Both the position numbers and the translations under genes were made by a program. The notes beneath the pieces are model-generated. The model was not told where the DNA came from, did no database searches, and saw nothing but the letters and a program-made list of their open reading frames with translations. A stretch of DNA of 64,000 nt, from NCBI GenBank assembly GCA_022571215.1, contig JACZYG010000001.1, positions 1 to 64,000 on the forward strand, given 5' to 3'. Below, one piece after another: positions 4,863 to 58,885 of this stretch. The DNA comes from Fidelibacterota bacterium. GTDB taxonomy: Bacteria; Fidelibacterota; SORT01. Every line of letters starts with the position of its first letter. Positions within the stretch are counted from its first letter, which is position 1.

Positions 4863-5087
4863 TTACCCTTTTGTTGGAAGATACTTTTCTTCCATCTCGT
4901 CCAGCATCCCTCTGCAGAAACCAAGCATATTTCGACGGTCCTCATCGCTGAACGAAGACATGCAATGATCCATCATCTTGGGCATCATCTCATGCATGTT
5001 CTTCATCATCTCCTAAGGATCCATCTTTTCCATGCTTTTCATCTTCCGCTTCATCATACCTTCCATCATTTTGTCCATCATACCCAT
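4863..5087 (-). pseudogene. Met-rich small protein gene with in-frame TAG stop
   Basis: A minus-strand ATG at 5087 follows a textbook AGGAGG site six bases or so upstream. The frame encodes a Met-rich peptide (MGMMDKMMEGMMKRKMKS at the start). It is broken by a TAG at 5013-5015 after 24 codons and then continues in the same frame for 49 more codons with the same composition (EMMKNMHEMMPKMMDHC...), ending at a TAA. The continuity shows one ancestral gene of about 74 codons with a nonsense mutation at what was probably a Gln, Glu or Lys codon. Met/His/Cys-rich small proteins often bind soft metals such as copper; the function here is unknown. Confidence 0.6.
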
Positions 5088-54480: not shown

Positions 54481-55845
54481 ATGGCTAATCCGTTTAAAGT
54501 TTTCGTGAATATCAAAAAAGAGGAGTTACCTCTCTCTCTTTTAATGTTTAGCTATTTTTTCTTAGTCATCACATCATTTTGGATTCTTAAGCCGCTCAAG
54601 AAAACTCTTTTCATAACATATTATGACCAAACAGGAGTTGATATTCTGTTTTGGCACCTAAGAGGATCTCAAGCGGAGCTTGTAGCGAAGGTATTAAATA
54701 TGTTTGTGGCGTTTGCCGCTGTGGTGATATTTACTTGGCTTACCCGTAAGTATCATCGTCAGCAACTGACCTTTATATTTTCCGGATTTATAATTTTAGC
54801 ATACGTGATTTACGGTTTTTTACTTGAAAGCCCCGGTGATTTGACTATCTGGACTTTCTATCTGTTTGGAGATCTCTTCAGCACATTGATGGTGGCGACG
54901 TTTTTTGCCTTTATGAACGATAGCGTAACACCCGAGGCGGCAAAACGACTTTATGGTCTTGTAGGATTGGGCGGTGTGCTTGGGGGTGTCATAGGAACCA
55001 CTTTTGTAAGAGTTTGGGTCGATAGCGTGGCACCAAGAACATGGTTGATGATCACTCTTGTAATAGCTTTGGTAATAATGATAATAGCCAAATACGCCGG
55101 TAAACTGGTTGATAAAAATCCTCCACAACGCTTGGAGGAAAAACCGCAATCCGCTGAAATTGAGGAAAAAACGGTGAACCCTGCTTTCGAGGGAGCAAAG
55201 CTTGTTTTCAATTCAAAGTATTTACTGGCGATAGCAGGCATCGTTGGTCTCTATGAAATCGTTTCCACAATAATGGACTTTCAGTTTACGTCAACAATCG
55301 AACATTATCTCGACGGTCCCGCAATAGGCAGGCAATTTTCAATTATATTCAATATTACCAACATTGTAGGAATGTTTGTTCAACTCTTTCTTACGAGTTT
55401 TATCATGACCCGATTCGGTCTTAAAACTGCGTTGATGTTTCTTCCGCTTGCTATTATAATAGGTTCGGCGGGATTTATTATGTTTCCGGTTCTCTGGATC
55501 GGGAGTCTTCTCAATACGGCGGACAATGGGTTCAGCTATTCCATAAATCAATCGGCGAAGGAAACGTTATATGTTCCCACTACAAGAGATGAAAAGTACA
55601 AAGCAAAGGCATTTATTGATATGTTTGTTCAGCGCTTCGCTAAAGCAATAGCGGTCTTGTTGAGCCTTAGTATTACCATGATATTCACCGATTATTCGAG
55701 CGTCAAATGGTTATCCGTAGCAACGTTAATAGTTGTAATAATCTGGATATTTATTGTGCGATTTGTAGGCAAAGAATTTAATAAGCTATCTGATACCAAT
55801 CTAAATGCAAGTACAGCTCAATTACAGCAGGATCATAAACGATAA
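54481..55845 (+). CDS. ATP/ADP-translocase (Tlc) family nucleotide exchanger
   Basis: A 454-residue inner-membrane protein with about 12 predicted segments. It begins with FKVFVNIKKEELPLSLLMFSYFF, followed by FWILKPLKKTLFI, and has the GLVGLGGVLGGVIGTTFVR and NQSAKETLYVPTTRDEKYKAKAFID segments characteristic of the Tlc/NTT-type transporter family. Classic Tlc proteins let obligate intracellular bacteria exchange host ATP for ADP; homologues of unknown substrate occur in free-living bacteria. No adjacent gene helps define the role. It is the only plus-strand gene between 30 and 64 kb. Confidence 0.85.
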   Translation: MANPFKVFVNIKKEELPLSLLMFSYFFLVITSFWILKPLKKTLFITYYDQTGVDILFWHLRGSQAELVAKVLNMFVAFAAVVIFTWLTRKYHRQQLTFIFSGFIILAYVIYGFLLESPGDLTIWTFYLFGDLFSTLMVATFFAFMNDSVTPEAAKRLYGLVGLGGVLGGVIGTTFVRVWVDSVAPRTWLMITLVIALVIMIIAKYAGKLVDKNPPQRLEEKPQSAEIEEKTVNPAFEGAKLVFNSKYLLAIAGIVGLYEIVSTIMDFQFTSTIEHYLDGPAIGRQFSIIFNITNIVGMFVQLFLTSFIMTRFGLKTALMFLPLAIIIGSAGFIMFPVLWIGSLLNTADNGFSYSINQSAKETLYVPTTRDEKYKAKAFIDMFVQRFAKAIAVLLSLSITMIFTDYSSVKWLSVATLIVVIIWIFIVRFVGKEFNKLSDTNLNASTAQLQQDHKR

Positions 55846-56187: not shown

Positions 56188-57060
56188 TTATCCCGCCACC
56201 GCATTTTTTGGAATCAAGACCTGATTGACCGAGCACTGCTCAACATACTCCACTTTACGGAAATCAAAATCTTTCGAGCCACAGACAAGGCAATCCGGAT
56301 TACGATAGAGCTTTACTTCTCTGAATGATGATTCACTGCCGTCATAGATCTGTAAACGGTTTTCTAACAGCTTCCCTACTTCAAAACCGTTACGGTTAAG
56401 GAGCAATGTCAGAGCTTGGGCAGCTTGGAGTGAACCGATGATTCCCGTGGTTACTCCGAAAATGCCTGCCTCGACACAGGTCGGCGCATTCTCCGGGTCG
56501 GGCGCGACGGGAAAGAGGCAACGGTAACAGCCGCATTCATCGGACTGGGTAAAGGTGGTCACTTGTCCGAAAAACTGGAGGACGGCGCCGAATACGAGAG
56601 GTTTACCAGCCTGTACACAAACATCATTGACAAGGTAGCGTGTAGGGAAATTATCGCTGCCGTCAACGATGACGTCATAATCCTCCATCATTTTCCAGAT
56701 GTTATCGGAGTTGACTTTCTCCGTATACGTACGCAAGTTGACGTCCGGGTTGATCTCATGGAGGGTATCCACCGCAGAATCTACTTTGAGACGACCAATA
56801 TCGGAGGTGCCGTGGAGAATCTGACGTTGGAGATTGTTTAGAGAGACAGTATCAAAATCAGCCAGCCCCAGTCTGCCGACTCCGGCGGCAGTTAGATAAA
56901 GGGCTGCGGGCGATCCAAGACCGCCTGCGCCTATCAAAAGAACGGATGACGCCTCGAGGGCGAGCTGCCCTTCCTCACCAACCCCATCTAAAGTGATATG
57001 TCTGGCATATCTGTTATACCACTCAATCGGTTTATCTACGTTAAAGGGCGAATTAGACAT
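56188..57060 (-). CDS. E1-like ThiF/MoeB-family sulfur-carrier adenylyltransferase
   Basis: A 290-residue E1-like enzyme. It has the nucleotide motif LLIGAGGLGSPAALYLTAAG, the metal/adenylation region SLNNLQRQILHG, DGSDNFPTRYLVND, the catalytic-cysteine region NAPTCVEAGIFGV, and two zinc Cys pairs (CGCYRC and CLVC). It adenylates the C-terminal glycine of a ubiquitin-like sulfur carrier. It lies four bases downstream of such a carrier gene, so it most likely activates that one (MoeZ-like), although molybdopterin MoaD elsewhere could also be a client. It lacks a rhodanese domain. Confidence 0.92.
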   Translation of the reverse strand: MSNSPFNVDKPIEWYNRYARHITLDGVGEEGQLALEASSVLLIGAGGLGSPAALYLTAAGVGRLGLADFDTVSLNNLQRQILHGTSDIGRLKVDSAVDTLHEINPDVNLRTYTEKVNSDNIWKMMEDYDVIVDGSDNFPTRYLVNDVCVQAGKPLVFGAVLQFFGQVTTFTQSDECGCYRCLFPVAPDPENAPTCVEAGIFGVTTGIIGSLQAAQALTLLLNRNGFEVGKLLENRLQIYDGSESSFREVKLYRNPDCLVCGSKDFDFRKVEYVEQCSVNQVLIPKNAVAG

Positions 57061-57063
57061 ATT

Positions 57064-57339
57064 TCATCCTCCCGCAATGGCTGAGATCAGTGTCACCTTA
57101 TCGCCGGGTGAAAGAGCGGTTTGAAGATTATCCTTGAGCTGGATGTCTTCCTCATTGAGAAAAATGTTGATATGACGATGTACGGTGCCTGAATCGCTAA
57201 GGAGTCTGCTCAACAGTCCGTCATAACTCTCCTGTAACTTCTCCAATGCCTCCCTTATATTAGTGGCATCCACTTCTATAATTTCATCCCCATTGACTAA
57301 GGCTTTTAACGGCCCCAAAAATTCAAACTGTGTTGACAT
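57064..57339 (-). CDS. CysO/MoaD-like ubiquitin-fold sulfur carrier
   Basis: A 91-residue carrier ending in the required Gly-Gly (ISAIAGG). The segment HRHINIFLNEEDIQLKDN followed by L.TAL.PGDKVTLISAIAGG is closer to mycobacterial CysO (from memory of that sequence) than to typical MoaD. I chose the ATG at 57339, where the domain starts; the frame is open to 57396 and overlaps the upstream gene either way. The thiocarboxylate form would donate sulfur to the PLP enzyme encoded upstream. Confidence 0.82.
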   Translation of the reverse strand: MSTQFEFLGPLKALVNGDEIIEVDATNIREALEKLQESYDGLLSRLLSDSGTVHRHINIFLNEEDIQLKDNLQTALSPGDKVTLISAIAGG

Positions 57340-58573
57340 AGTCAGCCTCTGCTTTATTAGTTGTGATTTCTTTATAAGACGAATATTTTGCTTCAATAAC
57401 TGACAGGTTATCCGTGCGGTAACTCACGAGGTCGGCTGTTTTAAGACCGTTACCCGTGATGCAAATGACAGTGACCCCCGATTTGTCCAGCTTGCCCTGC
57501 TCTGCTAATTTTTTCGTAACGGACAGCGTAACACCTCCGGCGGCTTCCGTAAAAATACCTTCGGTCTCCGCTAAGAGCGTAATTCCAGCAACCGCCTCGG
57601 AATCGGTTACGTCCTCCGCCCATCCATCGCTATTTCGTATAATGTTTGCCGCGCGATTGCCGTCGGCAGGCGACCCGATAGCCAACGATTTGACTATCGT
57701 ATCAGGCTTGACAGGGGTTATCTCCTCCGAACGGTTTTTAACCATGGCGGAAATCGGCGAGCAGCCTTTGGGCTGGGCGCCGAAAATATGCGCACTCTTC
57801 TCCTCCACCAGTCCCACCTTCACCAATTCTTTGAAAGCTTTATCTATTTTAGAGATGAGAGAGCCTCCCGCCATCGGAACGATTACTTGATCAGGCAGCC
57901 GCCAACCGAGCTGCTCGGCGATCTCGAAACCGACCGTCTTTGATCCCTCGGAGTAAAATGGTCTGAGATTCACGTTTACGACAGCTATCTTTTCCCTGTA
58001 GGACAATTCGGTACACAGCCGATTTACGTCGTCGTAGTTACCCAACACCTTGATCACAGTGGTATCGTAACATGCTGATGCTACCACTTTCTGCTGTTCG
58101 AGATCGTTTGGAATGAGGATGACGCTCTCCAGACCCAGCTGGGTAGCCTGAGCGGCAACAGAATTCGCTAAGTTCCCCGTGGAGGCGCAACCCACTTTAT
58201 TGAATCCGAAATCAATCGCCTTTGCCAATGCCACCGATACGACTCGGTCCTTGAAGGATAGCGTCGGGAAATTGACCGAGTCGTTCTTGATGTATAGCCT
58301 TGGTATACCCAGAACTTTGCCTAACCTTTTGGCATGCACCAGCGGAGTGAAGCCCACGGGAGTATCGGGTGTGCCACTCAGGACCTCGGGAAGTAGTTCA
58401 GCATAACGCCACATGGTCTTGGGCCGCGCCTCGATTGCCTTCCGCGAAATTGAACGTTTGAGCGCATCGTAATCATAGAGGACATTCAGAGGACCAAAGC
58501 AGATATGGCATACTGTTTCCGGTTTGAATTCGGTACGATTGCCACAGCTGGAGCATTCTAAAAATTGATTCAT
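57323..58573 (-). CDS. PLP-dependent threonine-synthase-like enzyme, possibly a CysO-dependent cysteine synthase
   Basis: A 416-residue fold-type II PLP enzyme. An N-terminal zinc-ribbon-like segment (CSSCGN...CHIC) is typical of one threonine synthase clade. The Schiff-base lysine is in FPTLSFKDRVVSVALAKA. GCASTGNLANSVAAQ and CITGNGLKTAD are the phosphate-loop regions. By annotation rules it would be threonine synthase. Because it overlaps a CysO-like carrier gene, sits before its activating enzyme and follows a Cys/Met-rich leader peptide, a sulfhydrylase role using carrier thiocarboxylate is at least as likely. Confidence 0.8.
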   Translation of the reverse strand: MNQFLECSSCGNRTEFKPETVCHICFGPLNVLYDYDALKRSISRKAIEARPKTMWRYAELLPEVLSGTPDTPVGFTPLVHAKRLGKVLGIPRLYIKNDSVNFPTLSFKDRVVSVALAKAIDFGFNKVGCASTGNLANSVAAQATQLGLESVILIPNDLEQQKVVASACYDTTVIKVLGNYDDVNRLCTELSYREKIAVVNVNLRPFYSEGSKTVGFEIAEQLGWRLPDQVIVPMAGGSLISKIDKAFKELVKVGLVEEKSAHIFGAQPKGCSPISAMVKNRSEEITPVKPDTIVKSLAIGSPADGNRAANIIRNSDGWAEDVTDSEAVAGITLLAETEGIFTEAAGGVTLSVTKKLAEQGKLDKSGVTVICITGNGLKTADLVSYRTDNLSVIEAKYSSYKEITTNKAEADYVNTV

Positions 58574-58600
58574 GTTTTTCCTTTTTTTGTTATAATAAAA

Positions 58601-58629
58601 AACCCCTCTACCTGTGGGGTAGAGGGGTT
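58601..58629 (-). terminator. Intrinsic terminator/attenuator just upstream of the PLP-enzyme gene
   Basis: A perfect 12-bp stem (AACCCCTCTACC and GGTAGAGGGGTT around five bases), followed on the minus strand by TTTTTTATTATA. It lies about 28 bases before the start codon of the gene at 58573, where a terminator only makes sense as an attenuator. GTAGAG at the end of the leader ORF (minus strand, 58666-58671) is complementary to CTCTAC in the terminator's 5' arm and could form a competing antiterminator. Confidence 0.75.
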
Positions 58630-58653
58630 TATTATTGAATTTTTTATTTTAGG

Positions 58654-58761
58654 TTACAACAACCACTCTACTCCCACTGTATCGGAGCTATACATACACA
58701 TCAAACACATCATAATACCCATGTCAACGCAGCGGGTATTATTTTGGTTGTTATATGCCAT
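58654..58761 (-). CDS. Leader peptide ORF rich in Met and Cys codons
   Basis: A 35-codon minus-strand ORF ending 25 bases before the terminator stem. Residues 14-23 read MGIMMCLMCM: six Met and two Cys codons in ten. An in-frame ATG five codons further upstream (58776) is an alternative start. Ribosome sites before either start are weak. The arrangement (short ORF, amino-acid-codon cluster, alternative pairings, terminator, biosynthetic gene) is that of amino-acid attenuation. The controlling amino acid would be Met or Cys. Confidence 0.5.
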   Translation of the reverse strand: MAYNNQNNTRCVDMGIMMCLMCMYSSDTVGVEWLL

Positions 58762-58885
58762 TTTTTTTATATTCATTTTTTACTTAACACGAATATATCC
58801 AAACGAATTTGTGATGCAAGCGAAATAATTTGATTTACATATTAACATCAAGTTCGATTCTCTTCTTGGTCTACAAGTTAATTCA

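Follow-up and report, generated by a model that had tools for sequence, protein, structure and literature searches.

Introduction

A sulfur-carrier system for homocysteine synthesis reportedly operates in Wolinella succinogenes, where HcyS, HcyD and MetY, attributed to work by Krishnamoorthy and Begley in 2011 (cited in PMC5764234), are said to start from O-acetylhomoserine and to rely on an enzyme of the MetY type (PF01053) together with a JAMM protease. A closer system comes from Streptomyces: as summarized in a later paper, MetM is a homocysteine synthase that converts O-phosphohomoserine and has a SAM riboswitch upstream, and MetO is a protein of the sulfur-carrier family (Hasebe et al. 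2024, doi 10.1128/aem.01247-24, via PMC12172450). A cyanobacterial MetM-like ThrC made threonine in vitro, and a Microcystis homologue has no SAM riboswitch (PMC12172450). According to Price et al. 2018 (PMC5764234), at least one route to homocysteine still awaited discovery. No conserved RNA structures were reported upstream of the methionine operons of actinobacteria in a survey of that group (PMC1262725).

Here we describe an operon from a 64-kb stretch of the genome of an uncultured Neomarinimicrobiota bacterium (the window, whose first letter is position 1). Its pathway, an enzyme served by a sulfur carrier, is already known in kind from MetM/MetO, and the methionine leader attenuator that precedes it appears to be undescribed. 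Judging from sequence, we consider it probable (roughly 85%) that the operon makes homocysteine by means of a MetM-like enzyme and its carrier, under attenuation by a methionine-rich leader peptide.

Results

The operon, which lies on the minus strand, consists of three genes. They encode a PLP enzyme that resembles MetM and belongs to the threonine synthase family (57323..58573; 416 aa), which we propose to be an O-phosphohomoserine-dependent homocysteine synthase; a MetO-like ThiS/MoaD sulfur carrier with the C-terminal sequence AIAGG (57064..57339; 91 aa), whose closest solved structure is CysO of M. tuberculosis (3dwg); and a ThiF/MoeB-type E1 activating enzyme that has no rhodanese domain (56188..57060; 290 aa). 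The original prediction was right to group these genes as one operon, but it had them fused and contained within 57064-58776; they are separate and adjacent, and the E1 gene, which reads from 57060 to 56188, falls outside that span. A homologue of TLC-type ATP/ADP transporters (PF03219) lies beside the operon at 54481-55845 on the plus strand.

Against the thrC model TIGR00260, the enzyme scores 247.7 bits (cut-off, 167.1), and since it lies above the cut-off, the model alone cannot tell the two functions apart; the enzyme also matches the NCBIfam model of cysteate synthase. In a quick tree, the window enzyme, its relatives and a gene of Nonomuraea gerenzanensis form a clade with a support of 100 (SH-aLRT), set apart from canonical ThrC and from other paralogues. 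Members of this clade have in common motifs such as NVNLRP[FY]Y.EGSKT and TEGIF.E.AGGVT, and the active-site motifs of the window enzyme are changed relative to those of ThrC. The Nonomuraea gene, which was reached by a protein search (51% identity), adjoins a carrier gene and has a SAM riboswitch directly on its 5' side (RF00162, E = 6.6e-16); no gene is annotated in the record of this locus, which holds the riboswitch, the MetM-like gene and the carrier (L121:7816-7957 and downstream).

The enzyme occurs in nine genomes, i.e., that of the window and eight further Neomarinimicrobiota, with identities of 68-72% in seven genomes of one other family and 56% in one distant genome; the MetM-like operon is present in 9 of the 245 genomes surveyed in the phylum. 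No close match to the enzyme was seen in the two genomes of the window's family that are 96% complete, or in two incomplete genomes from its genus. Its presence in this family is therefore patchy, and transfer may account for it. Enzyme and carrier genes adjoin in all nine genomes, and several relatives carry homoserine kinase (ThrB), aspartokinase and aspartate-semialdehyde dehydrogenase (ASD) on the 3' side of E1. In genome G185, a more distant operon (L034:3-3257) combines a CysK/CysM-like enzyme with a MetM-like gene, a carrier and an E1. A search of that genome for a JAMM protease found none, and a single carrier may act for both amino acids there.

The leader could be read at seven loci, the window's included, which represent five genera. 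The scan of genome contigs gave two loci, one of which (L018, the same place as L021) was left uncounted because a block of about 100 N hides precisely the attenuator of that relative; the leader of the distant genome is cut by a contig edge. In two relatives, a canonical thrC is situated directly upstream of the Met leader. Near metH, no convincing further Met leaders were seen in six genomes.

In the window, the leader peptide is encoded by an ORF of 40 codons (58654..58776, minus strand; MNIKKMAYNNQNNTRCVDMGIMMCLMCMYSSDTVGVEWLL), and this ORF and the terminator that follows it are both real, as originally predicted. Codons 19-28 (58693..58722, minus strand), which we presume to be the stall site, read MGIMMCLMCM from 58722 to 58693 and thus hold five Met and two Cys; the two Cys codons had been counted correctly and the six Met codons had been overcounted by one, because TTG encodes Leu. 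At least five Met per ten codons are found in only 3 of the 1125 short ORFs of the window, the leader among them. The remaining two form a neighbouring pair on the minus strand at 4863-5087; these small ORFs overlap and are very Met-rich, the first is preceded by a good ribosome-binding site (GGAGGT), and the second had no match in a Pfam search. A scan for promoters upstream of the leader supported none, and a weak candidate, TTGCAT-N16-TATATT, was noted there by eye.

Each of the seven readable leaders specifies a peptide of 30-40 codons that is rich in Met, and the Met run persists while the flanking sequence diverges. Dinucleotide shuffling of the seven leader regions gave such a run in 0 of 2000 trials for each region. 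Among 230 non-start codons there are 44 for Met and 9 for Cys; six leaders contain Cys, and one has none. A comparison of leaders among relatives, which had been suggested as a check of the prediction, therefore found the ORF and its Met codons kept in every case, along with alternative pairings, whereas Cys is not conserved.

The intrinsic terminator (58597..58627, minus strand) has a 10-bp core stem, a 5-nt loop and a T run: from 58627 to 58597 it reads CCCCTCTACC-CCACA-GGTAGAGGGG, then TTTTTT. It is the sole terminator-like site in the stretch scanned, for which shuffled sequences average 0.2. The end of its stem is 29 nt from the ATG at 58573. Leader and terminator together fold far better than shuffles (z = -6.05), and the window leader without its terminator still does so (z = -2.39). 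The terminator is conserved among the relatives' leaders, and no compensatory changes were seen in its pairs there.

The 5' arm of the terminator can also pair with a candidate antiterminator strand, GTGGGAGTAGAGTGGTT, located within the last codons of the leader (58661..58677, minus strand). The computed duplex has an energy of -23.0 kcal/mol, which none of 500 shuffles equalled. Corresponding pairing between the 5' arm and the last leader codons was computed for all seven readable leaders, with energies from -17.6 to -27.6 kcal/mol, matched by 0, 0, 0, 12, 2, 2 and 23 of 500 shuffles, respectively. In four of the seven, a gap of 14 nt separates the final Met codon of the run from the start of the pairing strand, which thus begins just past the position of a stalled ribosome and extends to or near the stop codon; in two leaders, the strand is placed in different codons. 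When six leaders were aligned, 85.7% of antiterminator cells were paired, compared with 51-62% after the partner was slid, and covariation amounted to one compensated pair. By computed pairing and spacing, then, the seven leaders each have an alternative structure that would exclude the terminator and be exposed by a stalled ribosome. Together with the Met-rich leaders and the terminator, this pairing supports the amino-acid attenuation proposed in the original prediction.

No riboswitch or T-box matched the window leader at the gathering score in a scan against Rfam, and a permissive scan returned only sub-threshold matches at chance level, mostly on the terminator hairpin.

The gene content of these genomes bears on the label of the enzyme. 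A complete thrA-asd-thrB-thrC operon is present elsewhere in the window's genome, so that the MetM-like enzyme is not needed as a threonine synthase; the doubt that the original prediction had cast on this label is thereby supported, since there is a canonical thrC beside thrB and the window gene is not the only one of threonine-synthase type. Relatives likewise have ThrC genes separate from the MetM-like gene. All nine genomes with the operon encode MetH. Profile searches of these nine detected no MetA or HcyS, and for MetX only negligible fragments; across the 245 genomes of the phylum, MetX was detected in just 3, and these lack the MetM-like operon. The window's genome contains one full-length PF01053 enzyme (of the cystathionine lyase/synthase type), and a transsulfuration route to homocysteine is therefore possible in it.

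Past the window's end on the same contig (C1, about 89.4-92.2 kb; L035:9367-12226) is a separate CysO-type cluster, comprising a CysM-like enzyme, a JAMM protease and a protein in which carrier, E1 and rhodanese are fused. The JAMM protease of this genome belongs to that cluster and not to the MetM-like operon, and a search of the nine genomes with the operon detected none in four. Some other route of release is therefore possible, and homocysteine might be freed by thioester hydrolysis or by another protease.

Discussion

In the pathway that we propose, E1 would activate the GG end of the carrier to a thiocarboxylate, and the PLP enzyme, as a homologue of MetM, would exchange the phosphate of O-phosphohomoserine for the sulfur of the carrier; homocysteine would then be released and methylated by MetH. 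In relatives, ThrB, aspartokinase and ASD would supply the O-phosphohomoserine. The threonine made in vitro by the cyanobacterial MetM-like ThrC calls for caution about the reaction assigned to the enzyme. The attenuator is very probably of the classical trp-type design, with methionine rather than cysteine sensed, because Cys codons are few and are missing from one leader. When Met-tRNA is short, the ribosome would stall in the Met run, the last leader codons would be exposed and could capture the 5' arm of the terminator, and RNA polymerase would read on; when methionine is plentiful, a ribosome at the stop codon would cover the antiterminator strand, and the terminator would form. Such stalling is conceptually odd, because a shortage of methionine limits translation initiation as well. 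The assigned function gains independent support from the fact that two unrelated methionine-sensing RNAs precede homologous genes, i.e., the leader in Neomarinimicrobiota and the SAM riboswitch in Nonomuraea.

A possible alternative is that the enzyme synthesizes cysteine from O-phosphoserine and the thiocarboxylate of the carrier, with a leader that responds to cysteine or to both sulfur amino acids. CysO being the nearest solved structure to the carrier would fit such a function, as would the pair of Cys codons in the run of the window leader, the occurrence of Cys in six of seven leaders (above what is usual for random codons) and the match to cysteate synthase, a relative of threonine synthase known to use O-phosphoserine. 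Yet Met codons outnumber Cys codons by 44 to 9, a complete cluster of CysM, JAMM and carrier/E1/rhodanese is located elsewhere, the operon partners in relatives are ThrB, aspartokinase and ASD, and the Nonomuraea homologue sits behind a riboswitch for SAM, all of which make this explanation improbable. Cysteine as the main signal of the leader was itself rejected, in that its codons are few and number zero in one leader. Of the carrier-dependent cysteine (or methionine) pathway in the original prediction, the dependence on a sulfur carrier and the methionine option are thus retained, and the cysteine option, for which the genome has its separate CysO-type cluster, is not.

The family models, which label the enzyme a threonine synthase, could alternatively be taken at their word: it would then be one more threonine synthase, placed by chance next to a carrier and E1 with another purpose (e.g., molybdopterin or tRNA thiolation), with a leader unrelated to its reaction. 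This is highly improbable given that enzyme and carrier adjoin in nine Neomarinimicrobiota genomes and in Nonomuraea, that the same genomes have a separate ThrC, and that the enzyme falls in its own clade with changed active-site motifs. There is only the faintest chance that the leader RNA acts as a riboswitch for a ligand and that its Met-rich ORF simply reflects conservation of the RNA. The SAM riboswitch of the homologous Nonomuraea locus and the folding of the terminator-less window leader above shuffles would suit such an RNA, but Rfam offers no match at the gathering score and only chance-level ones below it, the Met run is kept in seven leaders despite diverging flanks, and the antiterminator of two leaders lies in different codons. 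Homocysteine synthesis under a methionine leader attenuator accordingly remains our preferred reading.

If that reading is true, the pathway would be self-contained, with enzyme, carrier, E1 and, in relatives, the supply of O-phosphohomoserine, and the lack of a detectable JAMM protease in several genomes would imply another route for the release of homocysteine. It would also extend the recently reported synthesis of homocysteine from phosphohomoserine to a phylum nearly devoid of MetX, correct a probably recurring annotation error, in which a ThiS/MoaD gene has a second 'threonine synthase' as its neighbour, and provide a testable case for methionine sensing through leader-peptide stalling. 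A search of open-access literature returned no comparable leader peptide for methionine, although absence there is not proof of novelty. We see an even chance that this is the first described methionine-sensing, ribosome-mediated leader attenuator to replace the actinobacterial SAM riboswitch, joined to a self-contained carrier pathway that releases homocysteine without JAMM in several genomes.

Among known systems, MetM/MetO of S. albulus, as far as it is summarized, likewise has a threonine-synthase-like PLP enzyme beside a carrier with a methionine-responsive RNA upstream. The window enzyme is tied to MetM through its clade with a SAM-riboswitch-linked actinobacterial gene, and S. albulus MetM itself is matched by its summarized description only. 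Compared with that description, the window has a Met leader attenuator instead of a SAM riboswitch and a dedicated E1 in the operon, to which relatives add aspartate-pathway genes; because the Microcystis homologue lacks a SAM riboswitch too, its absence is a regulatory difference and not a defining one. The CysO/CysM/Mec system of M. tuberculosis also pairs a GG-ended ThiS/MoaD carrier and an E1 with a fold type II PLP enzyme, whereas the PLP enzyme of the window belongs to the threonine synthase family rather than to CysM and its operon has no JAMM protease. As proposed here for the window, HcyS/HcyD/MetY of Wolinella uses a carrier thiocarboxylate as the sulfur donor for homocysteine, but the window operon contains neither a PF01053 enzyme nor a JAMM protease, and MetX was not detected. 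With ThrC, the enzyme shares its fold family, the catalytic lysine, the STGN motif and, presumably, O-phosphohomoserine as substrate; it differs in its separate clade and changed active-site motifs, and a canonical thrC is encoded elsewhere in the genome. Like the attenuators of trp, his, thr, ilv and leu, the leader combines a run of regulatory codons, an intrinsic terminator and a mutually exclusive antiterminator with spacing on the scale of a ribosome; unlike them, it would sense methionine, and its antiterminator strand lies inside the last codons of the leader itself.
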